From positions 36,810 to 100,809 of the forward strand of contig CANBQT010000004.1 of the NCBI GenBank assembly GCA_947371755.1: a DNA stretch of 64,000 bases. Reading direction: 5' to 3'. Of the stretch, positions 22,955-36,343 are shown piece after piece. The notes under the pieces are model-generated. The model was not told where the DNA came from. It did no database searches and worked only from the letters and a program-made list of their open reading frames with translations. Position 1 is the first letter of the stretch. The number at the start of each line of letters is the position of its first letter. Source of the stretch: Chitinophagaceae bacterium. Lineage in GTDB: Bacteria; Bacteroidota; Bacteroidia; Chitinophagales; Chitinophagaceae. Made by a program: the position numbers and the translations under genes.

Positions 22955-22971
22955 TTATTAGTCTACCAAAT
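22955..22971 (+). promoter_or_regulatory. Candidate regulator site TTATTAGTCTACCAAAT upstream of cys leader promoter
   Basis: Identical 17-mer in inverted orientation at 33423-33439. Confidence 0.55.
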
Positions 22972-23043: not shown

Positions 23044-23106
23044 ATGAAACGATTTTCGCATAATACACCCATGTCTTTCTGTTGCAAAAGCAAATGTTGC
23101 TGTTAA
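23044..23106 (+). CDS. Putative cysteine leader peptide MKRFSHNTPMSFCCKSKCCC
   Basis: ATG...TGT TGC AAA AGC AAA TGT TGC TGT TAA; 5 Cys in the last 8 residues; 46 nt before cysH. Confidence 0.7.
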   Translation: MKRFSHNTPMSFCCKSKCCC

Positions 23107-23152
23107 TCCTAACAGTACTCTACATTGCTTACCATCTTAACAACAGAATTAA

Positions 23153-23869
23153 ATGAACAACTCCTTGAATCAAAACATACAAGATCTCCAGAATAAACTT
23201 ACTGAGTCTCAGCCATGGAATTTTTTGAAGGATCTATCAAGAGACTATGCGGGCAGAATTGTGTTTTCTTCAAGTTTCAGCTATGAAGACCAGGTGATTA
23301 CCCATTTAATTGCTCATCAACAATTGCCGATACAAATTTTTACGTTAGATACAGGAAGATTATTTGCAGAAACCTATAGTGTTTGGAGTAGTACTTTAGA
23401 ACGTTATAAAATATCTATCAAAGCATTTTACCCTGATCAATCCCGGCTGGAATCATTCGTAGAAAAAAATGGGCCCAATGCTTTTTATGAATCCGTTGAT
23501 AAAAGAAAGGATTGCTGTTTTATTCGTAAAGTAGAGCCCTTGAAACGAGCTTTATTAGGGAATGCCATTTGGGTTACTGGATTACGTGCCGAGCACTCTA
23601 CAGAACGTCAGGACCTTCAATCTATCGAATGGGATGAGAGCAATCAAATAATAAAGTATCACCCCCTTTTGCACTGGACTACCGAAGAGGTAACTGACTT
23701 TATAAAATCAAATAATATTCCATATAATCCTTTACACGATAAAGGATTTGTTAGCATTGGTTGTGCTCCTTGTACCAGGGCAATCAAATCAGGTGAGGAT
23801 TTCCGAGCTGGCCGTTGGTGGTGGGAGGATGCAAACAAAAAAGAATGTGGTTTACACGTGCATCAATAA
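23153..23869 (+). CDS. cysH: Phosphoadenylyl/adenylyl-sulfate reductase (likely Fe-S APS reductase)
   Basis: SSFSYEDQVITHLI, KDCCFIRKVEPL (CC) and GCAPCTRAI (CxxC). Confidence 0.92.
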   Translation: MNNSLNQNIQDLQNKLTESQPWNFLKDLSRDYAGRIVFSSSFSYEDQVITHLIAHQQLPIQIFTLDTGRLFAETYSVWSSTLERYKISIKAFYPDQSRLESFVEKNGPNAFYESVDKRKDCCFIRKVEPLKRALLGNAIWVTGLRAEHSTERQDLQSIEWDESNQIIKYHPLLHWTTEEVTDFIKSNNIPYNPLHDKGFVSIGCAPCTRAIKSGEDFRAGRWWWEDANKKECGLHVHQ

Positions 23870-23914
23870 TGGGAAAGTAAGAATTAAATATTGGCATCGC
23901 ATTTAAAATAGAAA

Positions 23915-24823
23915 ATGAGTAAGTATCAATTAAATTATTTGGATCAGTTAGAATCTGAGTCTATTCACATCATGAGAGAAGTTGCAGGTCAGTTCGAACG
24001 TCCTGCATTACTATTCAGTGGTGGAAAGGATTCTATTGTGCTAGTGCATTTGGCTTTAAAAGCATTTCGTCCGGGGAAATTTCCTTTCCCTTTAGTGCAT
24101 ATCGATACTGGTCATAATTTTCAGGAAGCACTTGATTATCGAGACGCTCTAGCGGAGAGAATTGGAGAAAAACTAATCGTTCGTCAAGTTGCAGATACCA
24201 TTAAAGCAAAAAACTTAACAGAGCCCAAAGGAAAATTTGCAAGTAGAAATGCATTACAAACTTATACGCTGTTAGATACCATAGAAGAGTTCAAGTTTGA
24301 TGCTTGTATTGGTGGAGCAAGAAGAGACGAAGAAAAAGCAAGGGCAAAAGAGCGCATATTTTCTGTGAGAGATGAATTTGGACAATGGAACCCAAAATTG
24401 CAAAGACCAGAATTGTGGGATACTTATAATGGAAGAATTGACAAAGGTGAGAATGTAAGAGTATTTCCTATTAGTAACTGGACTGAATTGGATATTTGGA
24501 ATTATATCAGAAAAGAGAATATTGAATTACCTTCTATATATTTTTCTCACGAAAGAGAAGTGTTGGAACACGAAGGCCAATTAGTGGCAGTATCTGAATT
24601 TGTTCAGATAGAAACCACAGATACAGTGTCTATAAAAAGGGTTCGTTATCGCACTGTGGGTGATATGACCTGTACTGCAGCAGTTGAAAGTAGCGCAAAT
24701 ACAATAGACGATATTATCTCAGAAATCATTGCTACAAAAACCAGTGAGCGAGGGGAAACAAGAATTGATGATCGTGTGAGTGAAGCGGCCATGGAAGACC
24801 GGAAAAAGAATGGATATTTCTAG
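23915..24823 (+). CDS. cysD: Sulfate adenylyltransferase subunit 2
   Basis: LESESIHIMREVAGQFERPALLFSGGKDSIVLVHLALKAF; ends RKKNGYF. Confidence 0.96.
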   Translation: MSKYQLNYLDQLESESIHIMREVAGQFERPALLFSGGKDSIVLVHLALKAFRPGKFPFPLVHIDTGHNFQEALDYRDALAERIGEKLIVRQVADTIKAKNLTEPKGKFASRNALQTYTLLDTIEEFKFDACIGGARRDEEKARAKERIFSVRDEFGQWNPKLQRPELWDTYNGRIDKGENVRVFPISNWTELDIWNYIRKENIELPSIYFSHEREVLEHEGQLVAVSEFVQIETTDTVSIKRVRYRTVGDMTCTAAVESSANTIDDIISEIIATKTSERGETRIDDRVSEAAMEDRKKNGYF

Positions 24824-24854
24824 ACCTGAAATTTTAAAAGTTTAAGAAAGTAAA

Positions 24855-26096
24855 ATGGATATATTAAGATTTATAACAGCAGGCAGTGTAGATGATGGTA
24901 AAAGTACCCTGATTGGCAGATTATTGTATGATAGTAAGTCGATCTTAATTGATCAACTGGAAGCTATAGAAAAGCAGACAAAGAATAGAGAAGATGGTGA
25001 GATCGATCTTGCCTTATTAACTGATGGGTTACGTGCAGAGAGAGAACAAGGGATTACTATTGACGTAGCGTATAAATATTTTACCACACCCAAGCGAAAG
25101 TTTATCATCGCAGATGCACCAGGTCATATTCAGTACACTCGTAATATGGTTACAGGCGCTTCAAACTCTGATTTGGCAATCATCTTAATCGATGCCAGGC
25201 ATGGGGTGGTTGAACAAACCAGAAGACATTCCATTATTGCATCACTGTTAAATATACCCCATGTAGTGGTTGCCGTAAACAAAATGGATCTGGTAGAATA
25301 TTCGCATGATGTTTACAATAACATTTTGATTGATTATGCAGCAGTTGCAAAATCACTGGGATTAAAGGATGTCAGGTATATACCAATCAGTGCATTGAAT
25401 GGCGACAATATTGTAGATAGGTCTACCAAGATGGACTGGTATGAAGGTGAGGGACTTTTGCAAATTTTAGAAACTGTTGTTGTAACAGATGATATCAATT
25501 TAACAGATGCACGTTTTCCAGTGCAGTATGTAATTCGTCCGCAAACTGAAGCATTGCACGACTATCGCGGATATGCGGGAAAAGTAATTAGTGGAATTTA
25601 TAAAAAAGGAGACTCTGTTACCGTGCAGCCTTCTGGTTTAACAACTACAATCTCTGCCATTGAGGTAAGTGGAATAGAAGTTGAAGAAGCTTTCGCTCCA
25701 CAAAGTGCCATATTACATTTAACAGATGATGTAGATGTAAGTAGAGGCGACTTAATTACATTAACTGAAAATCAACCTTCTGTTTCAAATGAATTGGAGG
25801 TTTTATTGTGTTGGATGGATCATAAACCATTGGTGGCTGGAAATAAATATCAATTGCAGATTAATAGCCGACTCGTAAGAGCGGTGGTTAAAGAGTTTCA
25901 ATATAAAGTGAATGTAAATTCATTGGAGCAAGAATCCGCACCAGAAAAAGTTCAACTGAATGATATTATCAAAGCAACAATAAAAACGGCTTCTCCGATC
26001 CCATACGATTCTTACCAACATCTAAGAGTAAATGGCGGTGCAATTTTGATAGACGAAACTAGTCATGTTACAGTTGGAGCTTGCATGATTCAATAA
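24855..26096 (+). CDS. cysN: Sulfate adenylyltransferase subunit 1 (GTPase), no CysC fusion
   Basis: ITAGSVDDGKSTLIGRLLYDSK, DAPGHIQYTRNMVTGAS, NKMDLV; 413 aa only. Confidence 0.95.
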   Translation: MDILRFITAGSVDDGKSTLIGRLLYDSKSILIDQLEAIEKQTKNREDGEIDLALLTDGLRAEREQGITIDVAYKYFTTPKRKFIIADAPGHIQYTRNMVTGASNSDLAIILIDARHGVVEQTRRHSIIASLLNIPHVVVAVNKMDLVEYSHDVYNNILIDYAAVAKSLGLKDVRYIPISALNGDNIVDRSTKMDWYEGEGLLQILETVVVTDDINLTDARFPVQYVIRPQTEALHDYRGYAGKVISGIYKKGDSVTVQPSGLTTTISAIEVSGIEVEEAFAPQSAILHLTDDVDVSRGDLITLTENQPSVSNELEVLLCWMDHKPLVAGNKYQLQINSRLVRAVVKEFQYKVNVNSLEQESAPEKVQLNDIIKATIKTASPIPYDSYQHLRVNGGAILIDETSHVTVGACMIQ

Positions 26097-26103
26097 ATTA
26101 AAT

Positions 26104-26937
26104 ATGACACAGAAAGAATTTATAAATAATCTGTTTAATCAGAATTCAAAGAATTTCAATTTTTTCCCGGATAAAGAATTGGCAGAAGAATTTATTGATA
26201 AACTCTTCGCTTTTCTTTTTTTACCTAAAACGGTGCGGCATAAACAGGCGGCAGATTTGGAAAAAGAATTTGAATCTTTAAAGAGCCATTTTTCCAGTCT
26301 TGTATACGATGTGATTCCTGATGGCGTAAAAGCTCAAGGTATTGCTGATACTTTTTTTGAAGCAATCCCTGAATTATATCACGGTTTAATCTCCGATGCA
26401 AATACTATTTTAAAATTTGATCCTGCAGCGGTTTCCGTAGAAGAGGTTTTAGTGGCATATCCAGGATTTTATGCAACTGCCATCTATAGGTTATCACATT
26501 TACTTTGGAATCTCAATGTGAAAATTATCCCAAGGATTTTTACGGAATATGCACATGGTAAAACGGGTATCGATATTCATCCTGGAGCTACTATTGGTAA
26601 GTCGTTTTTTATAGATCATGGAACAGGAATTGTAATTGGAGAAACAACGCTTATCGGAGATAATGTAAAAATATACCAGGGTGTTACTTTGGGTGCATTA
26701 AATGTTTCTAAAGATAAAGCCAGTACCAAGAGACATCCAACAATTGAAGACAATGTAATTATTTATTCGGGTGCAACTATTTTGGGTGGCGATACTGTAG
26801 TAGGACATGATAGTGTGATAGGGGGTAATGTTTGGTTAACTTATAGTGTGTTGCCCAATTCTATTGTATATCATAAAAGTGAAGTGGCAGTAAAGGATAA
26901 ATATCCGGATACTGAGGTTTTAAATTTTGTCATTTAA
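26104..26937 (+). CDS. cysE: Serine O-acetyltransferase
   Basis: DIHPGATIGKSFFIDHGTGIVIGETTLIGDNVKIYQGVTLGAL hexapeptide repeats. Confidence 0.93.
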   Translation: MTQKEFINNLFNQNSKNFNFFPDKELAEEFIDKLFAFLFLPKTVRHKQAADLEKEFESLKSHFSSLVYDVIPDGVKAQGIADTFFEAIPELYHGLISDANTILKFDPAAVSVEEVLVAYPGFYATAIYRLSHLLWNLNVKIIPRIFTEYAHGKTGIDIHPGATIGKSFFIDHGTGIVIGETTLIGDNVKIYQGVTLGALNVSKDKASTKRHPTIEDNVIIYSGATILGGDTVVGHDSVIGGNVWLTYSVLPNSIVYHKSEVAVKDKYPDTEVLNFVI

Positions 26938-26955
26938 TTCTTTAAAATATTACCT

Positions 26956-27867
26956 ATGAAAGCAAATAACATTCTCGCAACAATTGGCAATACACCACAT
27001 GTGCGTTTAAATAAATTGTTTGGTTCTAATCACGAAATTTGGATCAAGTTGGAAAAAACCAACCCTGGTGCAAGTATTAAAGATCGTATTGCATTAGCAA
27101 TGATAGAAGATGCGGAAGAAAAGGGAATCATTCATAAAGACAGTATCATTATTGAACCAACCTCTGGCAATACGGGCATTGGTTTGGCATTAGTTGCTGC
27201 AGTAAAAGGGTATAAGATCATTTTAGTGATGCCTGAGAGTATGAGCATTGAACGTAGAAGACTCATGGCCCTATACGGAGCTGAATTTGTATTAACCCCT
27301 CGTGAAAAAGGAATGAAGGGTGCTATTGAAAAAGCAACTGAATTAGTGCAAGCTACACCCAATGCCTGGATGCCTCAACAGTTTGATAATCCAGCTAATA
27401 GTGACATCCATCGCAAAACTACAGCACTGGAAATTATTGCTGATTTCCCTGATGGGTTAGATTATATCATCACTGGTGTAGGTACAGGCGGACATATCAC
27501 TGGTGTAGCTGAAGTTTTGAAAGCTAAATTTCCTAATCTTCAAGTGTTCGCTGTTGAACCTGAATTGTCGCCTGTATTAAGTGGTGGTGCACCCGGACCA
27601 CATCCTTTACAAGGTATTGGAGCGGGTTTTGTTCCTTCAATTTTGAATACAAAAATATTGGATGGCATCATAACAGTTAGTAAGGATGAAGCATATGCAT
27701 ATGCGCAACAAATTGCTAAACAGGAAGGTATTTTAGTAGGTGTTTCAACAGGAGCTTCACTTGCCGCAGTTGCTAAAAAATTAGCTGAGATCCCGGTATC
27801 TTCAAAAGTTTTGACATTCAATTATGATACTGGCGAAAGATATCTTTCAATCGAAGGATTATTTTAA
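26956..27867 (+). CDS. cysK: Cysteine synthase
   Basis: [45 protein letters not shown]. Confidence 0.94.
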
Positions 27868-27877
27868 TTAAGTACAT

Positions 27878-27896
27878 GAAAGTGGAACACACTTTC
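27878..27896. other. Small intercistronic hairpin GAAAGTG-GAACA-CACTTTC
   Basis: 7-bp perfect inverted repeat between cysK and cobA. Confidence 0.4.
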
Positions 27897-27932
27897 GCGT
27901 ATTCTTTAAACCTACTCAATTAGTAGACTATT

Positions 27933-28769
27933 ATGCATAAAATTGTCAGTTTTGGAAAAGTAATCCTTGCAGGAGCGGGATGTGGTGATCCGGAATTAAT
28001 CACTGTTAAGGCAGCTCGATATTTACAAGAGGCGGATCTGGTAATTACAGACAGACTGGTTAGTAAAGCGATTCTGGACACTTATGTTGCTCCTAATACC
28101 CCCATCATTTATGTTGGGAAACAATGTAAACAAAAAGGCTCAACACCACAGGAAGATATTAATCAGTTATTGGTTGATTATGCAGCGGATTATAAACTGA
28201 TTGTTCGCTTGAAAGGAGGGGATACTGCTTTCTTTTCGAATATATTAGATGAGTTGCATACTTTGAATAATGCTGGAATTAGATATGAAATTATTCCTGG
28301 AATCACCGCTGCTTCAGGAGCGTCTTCATATGCGGGTATTCCATTAACAGCCAGGGGGTATGCAACTTCAGTTCGTTTTTTGACTAGTTATAACGATAAA
28401 GTTCTAGATGAAAATTATTGGAGAGGTCTAGCTCAAACACCCGATACCCTGGTATTTTATATGTCATCCAATACGCTTGATCAACTAGTTGATCAATTAA
28501 GAGCGTATGGAATTTCGAACGATAACAAAATTGCTGTTGTTTCACAGGCAACAACTCACTTTCAACAAGTTCAGATTGGAAGTTTTGATGGTTATGAAAA
28601 TGAATTAAAAGGGAAAATATTTATTTCTCCTTCTTTAGTCATCATTGGAAAAGTAGTAACACTCCACGAATCTTTTAATTGGTATAATAATATAAAAACT
28701 GATGAATACTATTTTAAGCCAGTAGAAGATCTGGTTCAAAATGTATTGCCAAAACAAGCGATATGTTAA
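27933..28769 (+). CDS. cobA: Uroporphyrinogen-III C-methyltransferase (siroheme branch)
   Basis: GKVILAGAGCGDPELITVKAARYLQEADLVITDRLV, VRLKGGDTAFFSN, GITAASGASSYAGIPLTARG. Confidence 0.94.
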   Translation: MHKIVSFGKVILAGAGCGDPELITVKAARYLQEADLVITDRLVSKAILDTYVAPNTPIIYVGKQCKQKGSTPQEDINQLLVDYAADYKLIVRLKGGDTAFFSNILDELHTLNNAGIRYEIIPGITAASGASSYAGIPLTARGYATSVRFLTSYNDKVLDENYWRGLAQTPDTLVFYMSSNTLDQLVDQLRAYGISNDNKIAVVSQATTHFQQVQIGSFDGYENELKGKIFISPSLVIIGKVVTLHESFNWYNNIKTDEYYFKPVEDLVQNVLPKQAIC

Positions 28770-30460
28770 CAGAGGAAAAACACGCATTGATAAAATCCTT
28801 AGTTGATTCTTCAACACAGGAAGAACTGATATGGATCAATGGTTATTTATCAGGGTTAATAAATGATAGGCATAAATTAAGCTATCATTTACATACTGTG
28901 CCCTCAGTCAAAAAATTGACTATTGCATATGGAACTGAGACGGGAAATTCAAAAAAGTTAGCTACAGAATTTGCAGCCAAAGCAAAAAAGAAACAAATTC
29001 AAACTAAGCTGATAGGTTTGGATCAATACAGGTTGAATGATTTGGTGAAAGAAGAGTTGTTTGTAACTGTAATTAGCACTCAGGGAGAAGGGGAACCGCC
29101 TGCAGCAGCACAAAAATTTTACGATCATATTCATCAAAATGGGTTTCAGTTACAAAATCTTCAGTATGCTGTTCTGGCATTAGGCGACAGCTCTTACCCA
29201 CTTTTTTGTAAAACAGGTGAGGATGTAGATCAGCAATTATCAAAACTTGGCGGTAAAAGAATGGTGCCTATTCAAAAATGTGATGTTGATTATGAACTTG
29301 AAGCTGAATCATGGTTTGATAATTTACTACATGGTTTGAATACACACGAACCATCCATAAAGCCTCGTGAAACTAATCCGGCGGTAGTGGCAAAATCCAC
29401 CGGTAAAACAATTTATAAGGGAACTGTACTCAGCCATTTAAATTTAAATGACCGGGGTTCGAATAAAGAAACCTGGCATATCGAAATTGCAGCTGATTCG
29501 CTTGTGTATGAATCAGGTGACTCAATAGGAATTGTTCCAAAAAATAACGAATCAATTGTTGAGGCGATTATCCAAACAGTACAGGCAGATCCCCAGAAAT
29601 TTTTAAGTTATAAATCAGAAACATACACTGTTTATGATCTTCTGAAGCATAAGCTGAATATTTCAAATCTCAGTGAAAAAGTAGTTAAGAGATATGCTGA
29701 AATAACTAATCAAATAATTCCCATAGCTAAGTTTGATTTATTAGAAATTATTAAATCTTATCCAATTCAAACAGAAGATCAATTCATTGAAGTTTTACAA
29801 TGCTTGAATCCACAATCACCAAGATTATATACCGTATCATCTTCACCATTGGCTACTGAGGGTGAAGTGCATATCACAGTAGCCAGAGATGTTTTCTGGA
29901 TTAATCAACAAAAGAAGTATGGTGTATGCTCTGATTATCTGAGTTCGTTTAAAGAAGGTGATGCAATTGAATTCTTTGTTCAAAAAAATAAGCGATTTAA
30001 ACTTCCTTCAGATGATAAAGATATCATTATGATTGGTCCCGGTACAGGCATTGCAGCTTTTCGTGGATTTCTGCAAGAAAGGGAAATAGTGAATGGATCT
30101 GGTAGAAGTTGGCTGTTCTTTGGTGAACAACATTTTGCTTCTGATTTTCTGTATCAGACTGAGATTCAAAACTGGGAAGCAACGGGTACACTAACAAAAG
30201 TGAATGTGGCATTTTCGCGTGATCAAAAAAACAAGATCTATGTGCAAGACCGAATGTTGAGCCATGGTGCAGAATTATTTCAATGGATCAATAATGGTGC
30301 TTATATCTATGTGTGTGGTAAAAAAGATCCTATGAGTGTAGATGTTGAAAAAACATTCATTCAAATTGTACAGCAATACGGAAATAAAACCATAGAAGAA
30401 TCACTAGAATTCATCAATGAATTAAAAGATACGCATCGATACCATAAAGATGTGTATTAA
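28763..30460 (+). CDS. cysJ: Sulfite reductase flavoprotein alpha subunit
   Basis: YGTETGNSKKLATEFA, STQGEGEPPAAAQKFYDHI, SPRLYTVSSSPL, GPGTGIAAFRGFLQER; overlaps cobA by 7 nt. Confidence 0.93.
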   Translation: MLTEEKHALIKSLVDSSTQEELIWINGYLSGLINDRHKLSYHLHTVPSVKKLTIAYGTETGNSKKLATEFAAKAKKKQIQTKLIGLDQYRLNDLVKEELFVTVISTQGEGEPPAAAQKFYDHIHQNGFQLQNLQYAVLALGDSSYPLFCKTGEDVDQQLSKLGGKRMVPIQKCDVDYELEAESWFDNLLHGLNTHEPSIKPRETNPAVVAKSTGKTIYKGTVLSHLNLNDRGSNKETWHIEIAADSLVYESGDSIGIVPKNNESIVEAIIQTVQADPQKFLSYKSETYTVYDLLKHKLNISNLSEKVVKRYAEITNQIIPIAKFDLLEIIKSYPIQTEDQFIEVLQCLNPQSPRLYTVSSSPLATEGEVHITVARDVFWINQQKKYGVCSDYLSSFKEGDAIEFFVQKNKRFKLPSDDKDIIMIGPGTGIAAFRGFLQEREIVNGSGRSWLFFGEQHFASDFLYQTEIQNWEATGTLTKVNVAFSRDQKNKIYVQDRMLSHGAELFQWINNGAYIYVCGKKDPMSVDVEKTFIQIVQQYGNKTIEESLEFINELKDTHRYHKDVY

Positions 30461-30502
30461 TGAATGGAGCCTTTAACTATTATTAATTTTTTAATATAAA
30501 GT

Positions 30503-32179
30503 ATGTCAAAACAGGAGAAGCTATCCGTGATTGAAAGAATTAAAACGGAAAGTAAAGGATTGCGGGGATCTATAGTTGAAAGTTTACAAGATGAATTAAC
30601 TGGATCTATTCGTGAAGACGATCAGGCTGTGATTAAATTCCATGGGATGTATCAACAGGATGATAGAGACCGTAGGGAAGAAAGAGCCGAGAAAAAATTA
30701 GATAGACTGTATAGTTTTATGATTCGGTTGAGATTGGCAGGTGGATTTCTAACACCAGCACAATGGGTAGCAACACATCATATTGCTGGTGAGCATTCTA
30801 CAGGCGTGATTAAAATTACTAGTCGCCAAACAGTTCAGCTACATGGACTAATTAAATCCCATATCAAACCAACGATACAAGCTTTTAATGAGGCCAACCT
30901 AAACTCTATAGCCACTTGTGGAGATATTAATCGTAATGTTTTATGTAGTTCTCATCCAGGAGAATCGCCCATTCATGAACAGATATTCAGGTATGCTGAA
31001 AAAATTAGTGACCTCTTATTACCCAAAACAAATGCCTATTATGAGATCTGGCTTGATGAAGAAAAATTAGTTGATAAAAAAGAGGAGGAGGATCCACTTT
31101 ATCAAGACCGTTATTTGCCTAGAAAATTTAAAATAGCTATTGCCATACCACCCAATAATGATGTGGATGTGTATGCTAATGACCTTGGTTTAATAGCGGT
31201 AATTGAGGATGATGTGTTGAAAGGATTTAATATAGCAATTGGTGGCGGACTTGCCACAACACATGGTAACCCTGAAACCTACGCAAGATTGGCAACAATA
31301 ATCGGCTTTACAGATACTGAAGAAAAAACCCTTTCTGCTATTTATGAAGTCCTAACCATTCAAAGAGATTATGGAAATCGTTCAGATCGGAAATTATCAC
31401 GTTTAAAATATACAGTCGATAAAGTTGGGGTTGCTTGGTTTAAAGAAGAGTTGGAAAGAAGAATTGGATTTAGTTTGGAAGAGGCTCGTCCTGTTAAGAT
31501 GACTTCAAGGGTAGATCATTTTGGCTGGAAACAAAATGCTGCTGGTAAATGGTATTATACTTTGCTGGTAGAAAATGGTAGAATACTTGATACGGAAACT
31601 TTGCCATTAAAAACTGCTTTACATGAAGTGGCTAAAACAGGTAAGGCAAACTTTAGATTTACCTGTACGCAGAATCTAATTTTAAGTGACATCGAAGAAG
31701 CGGATAAAAAGGCAATAGAGCAAATACTAGATGTACATGGGATAACTAAGCATACAGAGAATAGCTCAGCACTCAGGAAAAATAGTATGGCATGTGTGGC
31801 ATTACCAACTTGTCCATTAGCCTTAGCCGAAGCGCAAAGGTATTTTCCGGAATTGATTACTAAACTTGAGCCGATACTTTCAAAATATGGACTGGATGAT
31901 GATGGTATTGTAATACGAATGACTGGTTGTCCTAATGGTTGTGCAAGATCTTATGCAGCAGAAATCGGTTTTATTGGAACCGCGCCCGGCAAATATAACT
32001 TGCATATTGGTGGGGATAGACAGGGTGAAAGACTTAATAAGATATATCGAGAGAGTTTAGAAGAACCGCAGATTCTTCAAGTATTGGATAAGTTGTTTCA
32101 GATTTATTCGAAGGAGAAAATTACGGGTGAAACATTTGGAGATTTTTCAGTACGTAAAGAATGGGTTGTATATGATTAA
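30503..32179 (+). CDS. cysI: Sulfite reductase hemoprotein beta subunit
   Basis: [63 protein letters not shown]. Confidence 0.94.
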
Positions 32180-33422
32180 ATACGCAGAAATATTTTCTCA
32201 AAAACTAGCCGAACTAAAAGATTCAGGAACTTATCGATATTTTCTGAACGTAAACAAATCGGCTCAGCACTTTCCGGTATTTTATTTTGAAGATGCTTAT
32301 GGTGAAAAACGCCGTGCTATAAACTTTTGCAGTAATGATTATTTAGCCATGAGTGTTCATGAAGAAGTAATTAGCAAGTTGGCTTTTGTGGCAAATAGGG
32401 CAGGAGCAGGAAGTGGTGGAACGAGAAATATCAGCGGGTCAACCATCTATCATCGGGAATTAGAAGCATCTATTGCATCATTGCATCAGAAAAATGCAGC
32501 TTTGCTATTTGGTAGTGCTTATCTGGCCAATCTTACAGCATTAAGTGTGATAGGAAAAATTCTTCCGGAGGTTGTTTTTATATCCGATGAAAATAATCAT
32601 GCATCAATTATCGAAGGTATTAAAGCGAGTGGATCTGCAAAAAGAATATTCCCCCATAATGATTTAGATGCATTGGAAAGGATACTAAAAAGTATTCCGG
32701 TTCATCAGCCTAAAGTAATTGTATTTGAATCGGTATACTCCATGAGTGGAACTGATGCGCCAATTGTAGAGATAGTATTGTTGGCAAAAAAATATAATGC
32801 ATTAACTTATATAGATGAAGTTCATGCAGTAGGGATCTATGGCGAACATGGGGGCGGTTTGACAGAGCAGTTAGGTATTCAACATGGTATTGATATTATC
32901 AATGGCACATTAGCAAAAGGATTTGGAGTTTTAGGCGGATATATTGCCGGGGATTCTAATTTTATTGATGCTATTAGAAGTGTAGGTGCAGGTTTTATTT
33001 TCACAACATCCTTGCCTCCAGCCATTTGTGCAGCTGCTACCAGAAGTATTGAGTATTTGAAAAATGATCAAACTATCAGACCTGCATACCACCAGAAGGT
33101 TAGTGAATTAAGAAATTTATTAAAACGGAATAACATTCCATTCTCTGTAAATAGTACGCATATCACCCCTATTCCAATTGGTGATGAAAAAAAGTGTAAG
33201 GAAATCTCAGATGCTTTACTCTACCAACAAGGTATATATATTCAACCAATAGTATTTCCCACTGTTAAAAAAGGAGAAGCCTGCTTACGTATTACAATAA
33301 CAAGTAAGCATGAAAATTCAGAAATGGTTACTTTGGTCCGGGCTTTAAAAATGGTGCTTGAATCATTTAATGTACGAACATATTCAAGTAGTAAAATTTT
33401 AAATAAAAATAATAGTATATAA
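32172..33422 (+). CDS. 5-aminolevulinate synthase-like alpha-oxoamine synthase
   Basis: [94 protein letters not shown]-type rather than KBL/BioF; 8-nt overlap with cysI. Confidence 0.78.
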
Positions 33423-33439
33423 ATTTGGTAGACTAATAA
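33423..33439 (-). promoter_or_regulatory. Candidate regulator site ATTTGGTAGACTAATAA
   Basis: Reverse complement identical to 22955-22971; overlaps putative -33 TTTG. Confidence 0.55.
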
Positions 33440-33453
33440 GAACTTTATATTTT
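33424..33453 (+). promoter_or_regulatory. Putative promoter (-33 TTTG, 18-nt spacer, -7 TATATTTT) for second Cys leader
   Basis: TTTG 33424-33427 and TATATTTT 33446-33453; same spacing as at 22986-23015. Confidence 0.5.
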
Positions 33454-33476: not shown

Positions 33477-33545
33477 ATGAAGTATACTTATCATATCGGT
33501 TTGACTAATTCCTGCAGGGATTTATTAATTGCCTGCTGTTGTTGA
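33477..33545 (+). CDS. Putative cysteine leader peptide MKYTYHIGLTNSCRDLLIACCC
   Basis: ATG...GCC TGC TGT TGT TGA; terminates in CCC-stop like the peptide before cysH. Confidence 0.68.
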   Translation: MKYTYHIGLTNSCRDLLIACCC

Positions 33546-33602
33546 TTCTCTACTAATTATCACAGTTTTAATTTCATTTGTTTTAATTTTTTATTTCTAA
33601 CT

Positions 33603-33680
33603 ATGAATCAACAAATGACTATGAAAGTTAAATGTAGATTACAAACGATGTTTATAGATTTTAAGAATAAGAAAAAATGA
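33603..33680 (+). CDS. Putative 25-aa mini-ORF MNQQMTMKVKCRLQTMFIDFKNKKK in TonB-receptor leader
   Basis: Start overlaps GAATCAACAA, complementary to leader-peptide Cys codons; ATGA overlap with next mini-ORF. Confidence 0.3.
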   Translation: MNQQMTMKVKCRLQTMFIDFKNKKK

Positions 33681-33727
33681 AAAAAAATATACCCACTATA
33701 CGATGTTGTAGACTAGAATCTCACTAA
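33677..33727 (+). CDS. Putative 16-aa mini-ORF MKKNIPTIRCCRLESH in TonB-receptor leader
   Basis: Contains Cys-Cys; TGTTGTAGACTA codons coincide with the GTAGACTA motif. Confidence 0.25.
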   Translation: MKKNIPTIRCCRLESH

Positions 33728-33796
33728 AAGAAAGAACGACTTTTTTTTAAAATAATAGTCTATAAAATTAATAGACAAATAAATCACAACCAATCC

Positions 33797-36343
33797 ATGA
33801 AAAAACTATTATTATTCTTAGTATTGTCTTTGCCAATTTTGGCAATTGCACAATTCTCAGGGCGAATAGTCAATAGTAGCAATGCTGCTATATCTAATGC
33901 AAATGTTTCCATTAAAGGAAGCTCCATCACTTCTACCACTGACGCTGATGGGAAGTTTCATTTTTCAAAGATTCAACAATACCCTTTTACATTGGTGGTT
34001 TCTCATATGGGTTTTGAGAAGTTAGAAAAGCTAATAAAAGACAACAATATCAATAACGTTTCATTAGAACTACAGGTATCTTACCAAAGAGATAGCATTG
34101 TTGTAACATCACGCAGAAGAAAAGAAGTGTTGCAGGAAGTTCCTCTATCAGTTTCTGTAATAGGAGGGGCAAAAGTTGAAGAGTCTGGTTCATTTAACGT
34201 GAACAGGGTTAAGGAGTTTGTGCCTTCATTACAATTATATACCTCAAACCCGAGAAATACTGGAATCAATATACGTGGACTTGGTTCTCCATTTGGACTT
34301 ACCAACGATGGCTTAGATCCTGGTGTAGGGTTTTATGTAGATGGGGTATATTACGCAAGGCCTGCAGCTGCTACGCTTGATTTTATAGATTTAGAAAGAA
34401 TAGAGGTTTTGCGTGGTCCTCAGGGAACTTTATTTGGCAAAAACACAGCCGCAGGTGCAATTAATATCACTACAAAAAAACCTAGCTTCAAAAGTGCTTC
34501 AAATTTTGAATTGAGCACTGGTAATTATGGTTATATCCAGGGGAAAATTTCTGTGACTGGTGCAATTAGTAAGAAATTAGCTACAAGAGTTTCTGTAACT
34601 GGTACACAAAGAGATGGAGTCATTGATAATGTACGTACTCACACAAAAACAAATAGCCTCAGTAATTTCGGATTCCACGGCCAATTATTATATCAAGTAA
34701 CTGATAAAACTACTGTTACTTTTTCAGGAGATGCGGCCATTCAACGTCCTGATGGATATGCCCAAGTGATTGCAGGGGTAGTTCAAACAAAACGTGCTGC
34801 TTATCGTCAATTCAATGCCATTATAAAAGATCTGAATTATTCTTTACCAAGTCAAAATGCATTTGATCGTTTGATTGATCACGATACTCCCTGGAAATCT
34901 GATAATGATATTGGTGGAGCCTCAGTGAATGTTGATTCAAAAATAGGATCAGGCACTTTTACATCAACTACCGCTTGGCGTTATTGGAATTGGGGGCCTT
35001 CAAATGATAGAGATTTTACTGGTTTGCAGGCTTTGGCAAAATCACAAAATCCTGCGAAGCACCAACAATGGTCACAAGAATTTCGCTATTCTGGTGAATT
35101 GTCATCAAATGTAAGTGCAGTTGTTGGACTATTCGGTATTGGACAGGAAGTTAAAATTGATGGACTCGAAGAGTCCGGAAAAGATCAGTGGCGTTTTGTT
35201 CAAAGTTCTACCAGTGCACTTTGGAAAACTCCAGGGTTATTTGAAGGATACGGCATAAAAACAAAGGCATCACTTAATTCTGTGAGTGCAGCAGCATTTA
35301 CAAATATTGATTGGGAAATTGTAAAAGGGTTGCATGTATTGCCAGGACTACGTTTCAATTATGATAAAAAAGATGTTGATTATAATCGTATTGCCTCCGG
35401 TGGTTTGCAAACAACTAATACTGCTTTAATTGCATTAAAGAATTCGGTTTATACCAGCCAGTCATATCTTGCCAGTAAGGAAGAAAATAACTTAACGTAT
35501 CAACTTACCTTATCTTATAGACCTTCAACTAAAATTAATGCCTTCGCAACTTATTCAACCAGTTTTAAACCTTCTGGGGTAAATATTGCAGGGTTGCCAA
35601 CCAATCCAGATAATTCCGCAGCAACAGACCTTGCAGTGATCAAGCCTGAGTATACTAAACATTTTGAAATTGGTTTAAAAACTACACCTGCAAAAAACGT
35701 AACATTGAATTTTGCTTTTTATAATTCTGATATTACAGATTATCAAACAAATGTTCAGTCACCACAGTTGGGTGTAAACAGAGGATATATTGCAACTGCT
35801 GAAAAAGTGAAAGTGCAGGGTTTTGAATTTGATGGCAATATGGATATTCAGAGAAATTTTTCTCTCTTCGCTTCTGTAGCGTATACAGATGGTAAATATG
35901 TAAGCTTTAAGAATGCGCCACTTCCATTAGAAGAAACCGGTACAACACAAGGAGGAGTTCAGGTTGCTTTCAAAGACGTTTCAGGTGCTCAACTTCCTGG
36001 TATTTCTAAATGGGCAGGGACTATTGGTGCTGAGTATAATTTTCCTGCTGTATTTTTTGGTAAGGCGGGCAAATTATTTATTGCTTCAGAAGCTTACTAT
36101 CGTTCTTCATTCTCGTCTAGTCCATCTCCTTCTGCTTATTTAAATATTGAGGGCTATACATTAGTCAATACAAGAGTTGGATTCAAAGTAACCAATGGTT
36201 TATCTTTTTATATATGGGGAAGAAATATTTTTAATCAAAACTATTATGAACAATTATTAGTGGCAGGAGGTAATGCCGGTCAATATGCGGGCGTTTTAGG
36301 TGATCCTCGAACTTATGGAGTAACGTTAAAGTTTTCTCTTTAG
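33797..36343 (+). CDS. TonB-dependent outer-membrane receptor with carboxypeptidase-like N-terminal domain; no SusD partner
   Basis: Signal peptide, CarboxypepD-like SGRIVNSSNAAISNANVSIKGS, plug FVDGVYYARPAA...LERIEVLRGPQGTLFGKNTAAGAINITTKKP, C-terminal beta strand YGVTLKFSL. Confidence 0.93.
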   Translation: MKKLLLFLVLSLPILAIAQFSGRIVNSSNAAISNANVSIKGSSITSTTDADGKFHFSKIQQYPFTLVVSHMGFEKLEKLIKDNNINNVSLELQVSYQRDSIVVTSRRRKEVLQEVPLSVSVIGGAKVEESGSFNVNRVKEFVPSLQLYTSNPRNTGINIRGLGSPFGLTNDGLDPGVGFYVDGVYYARPAAATLDFIDLERIEVLRGPQGTLFGKNTAAGAINITTKKPSFKSASNFELSTGNYGYIQGKISVTGAISKKLATRVSVTGTQRDGVIDNVRTHTKTNSLSNFGFHGQLLYQVTDKTTVTFSGDAAIQRPDGYAQVIAGVVQTKRAAYRQFNAIIKDLNYSLPSQNAFDRLIDHDTPWKSDNDIGGASVNVDSKIGSGTFTSTTAWRYWNWGPSNDRDFTGLQALAKSQNPAKHQQWSQEFRYSGELSSNVSAVVGLFGIGQEVKIDGLEESGKDQWRFVQSSTSALWKTPGLFEGYGIKTKASLNSVSAAAFTNIDWEIVKGLHVLPGLRFNYDKKDVDYNRIASGGLQTTNTALIALKNSVYTSQSYLASKEENNLTYQLTLSYRPSTKINAFATYSTSFKPSGVNIAGLPTNPDNSAATDLAVIKPEYTKHFEIGLKTTPAKNVTLNFAFYNSDITDYQTNVQSPQLGVNRGYIATAEKVKVQGFEFDGNMDIQRNFSLFASVAYTDGKYVSFKNAPLPLEETGTTQGGVQVAFKDVSGAQLPGISKWAGTIGAEYNFPAVFFGKAGKLFIASEAYYRSSFSSSPSPSAYLNIEGYTLVNTRVGFKVTNGLSFYIWGRNIFNQNYYEQLLVAGGNAGQYAGVLGDPRTYGVTLKFSL

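Follow-up and report, generated by a model that had tools for sequence, protein, structure and literature searches.

The leader of a TonB-dependent receptor gene in the window (the whole 64,000-nucleotide stretch of Chitinophagaceae DNA analyzed here) contains short upstream open reading frames (uORFs) with runs of cysteine codons. The original prediction was that the last Cys codons and the stop of the first uORF pair with the start region of the next mini-ORF and that this pairing is a mechanism shared with a second leader in the window, that of the cysH operon.

Cysteine-run uORFs upstream of the receptor

The receptor, the putatively regulated gene (33797 to 36343, + strand), was predicted to contain CarboxypepD_reg, Plug, and barrel domains (Pfam PF00593, PF07715, and PF13715). 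Upstream of it, uORF1 (33477 to 33545, +) encodes a 22-residue peptide, MKYTYHIGLTNSCRDLLIACCC, ending in the Cys codons TGC TGT TGT and a TGA stop (33534 to 33545, +), the presumed sensing site. About half of 80 receptor homologs, drawn from Chitinophagaceae, Sphingobacteriaceae, Cytophagales, and Flavobacterium, have a Cys-run uORF at the equivalent place; in about half, no Cys uORF was detected. Within 350 nt upstream, short ORFs with at least three Cys among their last five residues were found at 24 of 78 loci; the opposite strand had none, and no other residue exceeded 6 in the same test. Apart from the Cys run, the peptides were free to vary. On this comparison of homologs, the uORF with a terminal run of Cys codons is what evolution keeps in the receptor leader.

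Arginine directly before the terminal Cys run was encoded by CGA in 11 of 15 receptor leaders (P = 6e-11) and still in 9 of 13 after near-duplicates were removed (P = 8e-9); within these receptor genes, CGA makes up 6% of all Arg codons. The resulting core, CGATGTTG, preceded 17 of 79 receptors, where 0.1 were expected. In the window, uORF1 is followed by a mini-ORF encoding MNQQMTMKVKCRLQTMFIDFKNKKK (33603 to 33680, +), which is not conserved and is absent from relatives, and whose TGA overlaps the ATG of uORF2 (ATGA). The latter ORF (33677 to 33727, +; MKKNIPTIRCCRLESH) had no place in the original account of this leader. It carries the family core CGA-TGT-TGT (33701 to 33709), which matches that of homologs and is placed as in L003 to L006, so the leader in the window consists of two Cys uORFs in series. 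The uORF peptides had no NCBIfam match, and no Rfam cis-regulatory RNA matched at curated score in the window.

Genes of sulfur metabolism adjoin the receptor at a number of loci (TauE-like, 18 loci; cysI, 7; cysN, 5). In the window, the ORF between cysI and the receptor leader (32175 to 33422) encodes a protein that scored 510 bits against a cutoff of 339 for 5-aminolevulinate synthase, and a similar protein adjoins the receptor in relatives L001 and L002. To our knowledge, this heme-pathway enzyme is unusual among Bacteroidota.

Complementarity within the receptor leader

The predicted pairing is present as described: TTGTTGATTC (33539 to 33548, +) is an exact 10-nt reverse complement of GAATCAACAA (33605 to 33614, +). 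The first arm starts on the final T of the penultimate Cys codon, runs through the last Cys codon and the TGA stop, and extends 3 nt past the stop. The second arm does overlap the ATG at 33603, an overlap limited to the G of that codon. Shuffled controls, proposed with the original prediction, spoke against a special status for this duplex. The longest inverted repeat within 33477 to 33796 is 10 nt, a length of at least 10 nt was reached by 20.6% of dinucleotide shuffles of this leader (G+C content, 25%), and 45 inverted-repeat pairs of 10-mers separated by at most 80 nt occur in the whole window. Folding of 33520 to 33640 was close to the shuffled expectation (z = -0.5; 52 of 200 shuffles as good). 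Pairing anchored on the Cys codons, an anchor chosen post hoc, gave a P of ~0.004 by shuffles and of 0.06 when scored by duplex energy.

Comparison with relatives separated the two arms. TTGTTGATTC recurs in L001 and L002, where it again spans Cys codons and the stop; GAATCAACAA was not found in L001, L002, or L046, and in the alignment its region corresponds to a stretch missing from the three closest relatives. It also lies within the nonconserved mini-ORF, at a distance of 183 nt from the receptor start. The Cys codons of 35 receptor leaders were compared with the 45 nt that precede the receptor start: the longest complementary stretch averaged 5.03 nt (5.12 expected), and none of the 35 leaders showed an excess at P < 0.05. 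Duplex energies concurred (mean z, -0.08; standard error, 0.24), and sequestration of the start by structure with the Cys codons was not found in receptor leaders (Fisher P = 1.0). A duplex with the Cys codons was thus rejected as a conserved feature of these leaders. Since the partner is absent from relatives and the tests were null, the pairing is best regarded as due to chance or private to this genome, and the 10-nt duplex at the receptor leader is most likely incidental. The first reading is corrected accordingly: in the receptor leader it is the run of codons that is conserved, and the duplex is not. Because the start of the mini-ORF pairs with uORF1 and its end overlaps uORF2, a tentative possibility is that the duplex could relay a signal from one uORF to the other.

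cysH leader and operon

The second leader precedes a sulfate-assimilation and cysteine operon (23153 to 32179, +) with the ORFs cysH, cysD, cysN, cysE, cysK, cobA, cysJ, and cysI. The first gene contains a phosphoadenosine phosphosulfate (PAPS) reductase domain (PF01507), and the names of the others were assigned by reading their translations. Its Cys-run uORF (23044 to 23106, +; MKRFSHNTPMSFCCKSKCCC) is kept before cysH across the family and the genus. Here the Phe-Cys-Cys codons form a putative sequestering arm, TTCTGTTG (23077 to 23084, +), whose partner, CAACAGAA (23141 to 23148, +), ends 4 nt before the cysH ATG. Both arms are invariant in six congeners (the window and L285 to L289) while surrounding bases vary, and more distant cysH leaders contain other matched pairs in their place (TTGTTGTTGTT in L292, GTTGTTG in L296, and CGTGTTG in L298 and L299).

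Among 33 cysH leaders, complementarity between Cys codons and the start was in excess (Fisher P = 6e-4), with members of the genus dominating this excess. When the Cys codons were masked as if by a ribosome, the cysH start became more accessible, its unpaired fraction rising from a mean of 0.44 to 0.57 (mean z, 0.95; standard error, 0.46), which supports start release at cysH; across receptor leaders, the same masking gave no mean gain in accessibility, and start release was rejected there. The test was thus positive at cysH and showed no excess among the 35 receptor leaders; of the two leaders, only that of cysH fits the pairing logic. Of the mechanism predicted to be shared by the two leaders, the part that stands is a genuine Cys-run uORF in each, with a common principle of Cys sensing that is well supported, and pairing at cysH; pairing at the receptor does not. 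Of the 101 congeneric genomes, only 18 contain cysH itself, a patchy distribution of the sulfate-assimilation operon across the genus.

Genome-wide and phylum-wide occurrence

uORFs in the 3.4-Mb genome were sought by sequence patterns only. All 30 CCC-stop motifs (TGYTGYTGYTRA) were checked, and the free-standing ORFs located before a gene were those of the receptor and cysH. A search for four Cys codons added a single uORF, MHLSNYYTYSCCCCY, before cysS. Cys-run short ORFs were therefore detected before exactly three genes in this genome, the receptor, the cysH operon, and cysS. The cysS uORF is present in a subset of the genus (L147 and L192 to L197), which includes the genome of the window (C28). 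The presence of such a uORF before the gene for Cys-tRNA synthetase points to Cys-tRNA charging, rather than a metal, as the signal.

Phylum-wide, a pattern of five Cys codons was strongly overrepresented. Most sampled matches were inside longer genes, and raw counts were for this reason dropped as evidence; free-standing matches were before cysS, cysH, and one dioxygenase-like gene. In L156, L157, and L160, from another family of the same class, uORFs with 6 to 9 Cys codons precede a gene for a 269-residue protein. This protein reads like a candidate member of the phytanoyl-CoA dioxygenase family; a 50-residue piece of it had no Pfam match.

Promoter and operator-like elements

A putative Bacteroidota-type -7 promoter box, TATATTTT (33446 to 33453, +), close to TAnnTTTG, lies upstream of uORF1, as in homologous leaders, in which the uORF usually follows the box directly. 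TAnnTTTG boxes were found no more than 80 nt ahead of the uORF in 25 of 35 receptor homologs; for receptor and cysH leaders combined, the count was 53 of 68 (3% of random stretches in both comparisons), a placement that makes the uORF most likely the first ORF on the transcript. The gap from box to ATG was 4 to 55 nt (median, 22 for the receptor and 28 for cysH), so most Cys uORFs probably have a short 5' untranslated region (UTR) and are not leaderless.

Two operator-like palindromes flank the receptor leader. Palindrome 1, TAGTATATAAATTTGGTAGACTA (33413 to 33435, +), overlaps the -33 region of the promoter, has one mismatch to TAGTCTA-N9-TAGACTA, and is aligned in L001 to L004, L046, and other relatives. 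Palindrome 2, TAGTCTATAAAATTAATAGACAA (33756 to 33778, +), was found by palindrome search and alignment immediately before the receptor gene. These two sites are the best matches in the genome. Since a reversed control gave 42 matches compared to 9 per strand for the palindrome itself, only these two one-mismatch sites were used. The half-site GTAGACTA occurs five times in the window (0.7 expected), and four of these copies belong to the two leaders; positions 22959, 23028, 27923, and 33708 include the cysH leader and the region preceding the cobA-like gene. The palindrome is probably the site of a transcription factor of sulfur genes. Directly before palindrome 2 is a T8 tract (33741 to 33748, +) with no terminator hairpin before it. 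The corresponding motif, TTTTTTTT, was found in 15 of 79 upstream regions (0.4 expected), many of them Chitinophagaceae leaders.

Comparison with known systems

Polycysteine-encoding leaderless short ORFs have reportedly been described in mycobacteria and are the closest known system. As in that system, Cys-run short ORFs precede genes of cysteine metabolism, one sensor is common to several operons, and at cysH a structure conceals the start and would be opened by a stalled ribosome. The differences are that the phylum is another one, that a short 5' UTR is probably usual here whereas the mycobacterial ORFs are leaderless, that a TonB-dependent receptor is among the targets, and that receptor leaders have no sequestering structure and often a rare CGA before a Cys pair.

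CruR (DUF2946), the copper uORF of Bordetella bfrG, likewise contains Cys residues, lies in an unstructured leader, and precedes a TonB-dependent transporter (mBio 2022, PMC9426467). CruR is an exported protein of more than 140 residues that senses copper through a CXXC motif and contains a RAPP arrest motif (PMC9426467). The uORFs here are 15 to 40 residues long, end in Cys codons, and have partners in cysteine metabolism, and the DUF2946 domain and the CXXC and RAPP motifs are absent from the 22-residue uORF1 peptide. In common with the trp and his leader-peptide attenuators is a run of codons for the amino acid whose genes are controlled; unlike in those attenuators, an intrinsic terminator was not found in receptor leaders. 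The Bacteroidota literature that was found contains general mentions of leader peptides (amino acid operons and long 5' UTRs in transcriptome papers) and no cysteine uORF.

Proposed mechanism and alternative explanations

Taken together, the comparisons make it likely that the TonB-receptor leader is a cysteine-responsive, ribosome-stalling uORF attenuator. We infer that uORF1, and perhaps also uORF2, would be translated first on the transcript, with charged Cys-tRNA as the ligand. With ample Cys-tRNA, the ribosome would clear the terminal Cys codons and exit at the stop; with scarce Cys-tRNA, it would halt on them, and the stalled ribosome would permit production of the receptor along with that of the cysH operon and cysS, which have the same kind of uORF. 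At cysH, the stall would release the start region from the hairpin with the Cys codons. At the receptor, it may block Rho-dependent termination in the unstructured spacer, the favored readout by analogy with CruR, to which we give somewhat less than half of the weight within the attenuator explanation. A search of the receptor leaders for a shared structure or intrinsic terminator by which a stall could be coupled to expression found none, which makes the proposed receptor readout a conjecture. The C>G bias of the spacer was not distinctive (C/[C + G] of 0.63, compared to 0.59 in homologs with no uORF). A counterpoint to the attenuator is that uORF1 of the window has just three terminal Cys codons.

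The alternatives differ in what the Cys run would do. Opening of the duplex between the Cys codons and stop of uORF1 and 33605 to 33614, which would free the next ATG when a ribosome stalls, has on its side the exact complement with its anchored shuffles, the comparable pairing in cysH leaders, and a rise in start accessibility from 0.61 to 0.77 (z = 4.5) upon masking of the Cys codons in the leader of the window. No such gain was found in the three nearest relatives, and this explanation is unlikely given a partner that relatives lack and that is distant from the receptor start, an unremarkable local fold, and the null result in 35 leaders. Classical attenuation, in which the ribosome selects between an intrinsic terminator and an antiterminator, would account for the T8 tract that many leaders have ahead of the gene, but hairpins before the tract were of about shuffled strength in nearly all Cys-uORF leaders, and the strong ones (L020, L027, and L078) are in leaders without a uORF. 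Intrinsic terminators, as a G+C hairpin with a U tract, were rejected, there being essentially none with Cys uORFs; we consider this reading quite unlikely.

A nascent peptide that senses copper or another metal, instead of cysteine supply, has a precedent in CruR, a uORF of a TonB-dependent transporter that uses Cys residues, stalling, and Rho (PMC9426467). Against it, Cys residues at the extreme C terminus would remain within the ribosome tunnel, the peptides have neither a DUF2946-like length, a RAPP motif, nor an NCBIfam match, and the same uORFs before cysH operons and cysS fit cysteine and not copper, which makes metal sensing very unlikely. Control solely by a transcription factor on the two flanking palindromes, with no role for the uORF, draws on their rank as the best matches in the genome and on the enrichment of the half-site at the two leaders. 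It leaves unexplained the repeated conservation of a Cys run amid free peptide sequence, and both layers of control can coexist; we regard it, too, as improbable.

The attenuator reading may extend to a ribosome-sensed cysteine regulon of Bacteroidota's own, comprising the cysH operon, cysS, and the receptor, in which stalling at the receptor would take place in an unstructured leader, at a rare CGA with two Cys codons after it; we put this forward as a tentative possibility. If true, outer membrane import would be tied to Cys-tRNA charging without an RNA switch, and a second lineage would be added to the mycobacterial polycysteine attenuators. A phylum-wide Cys-codon sensor would place the receptor in the cysteine and sulfur economy of these bacteria and would hint at its cargo.
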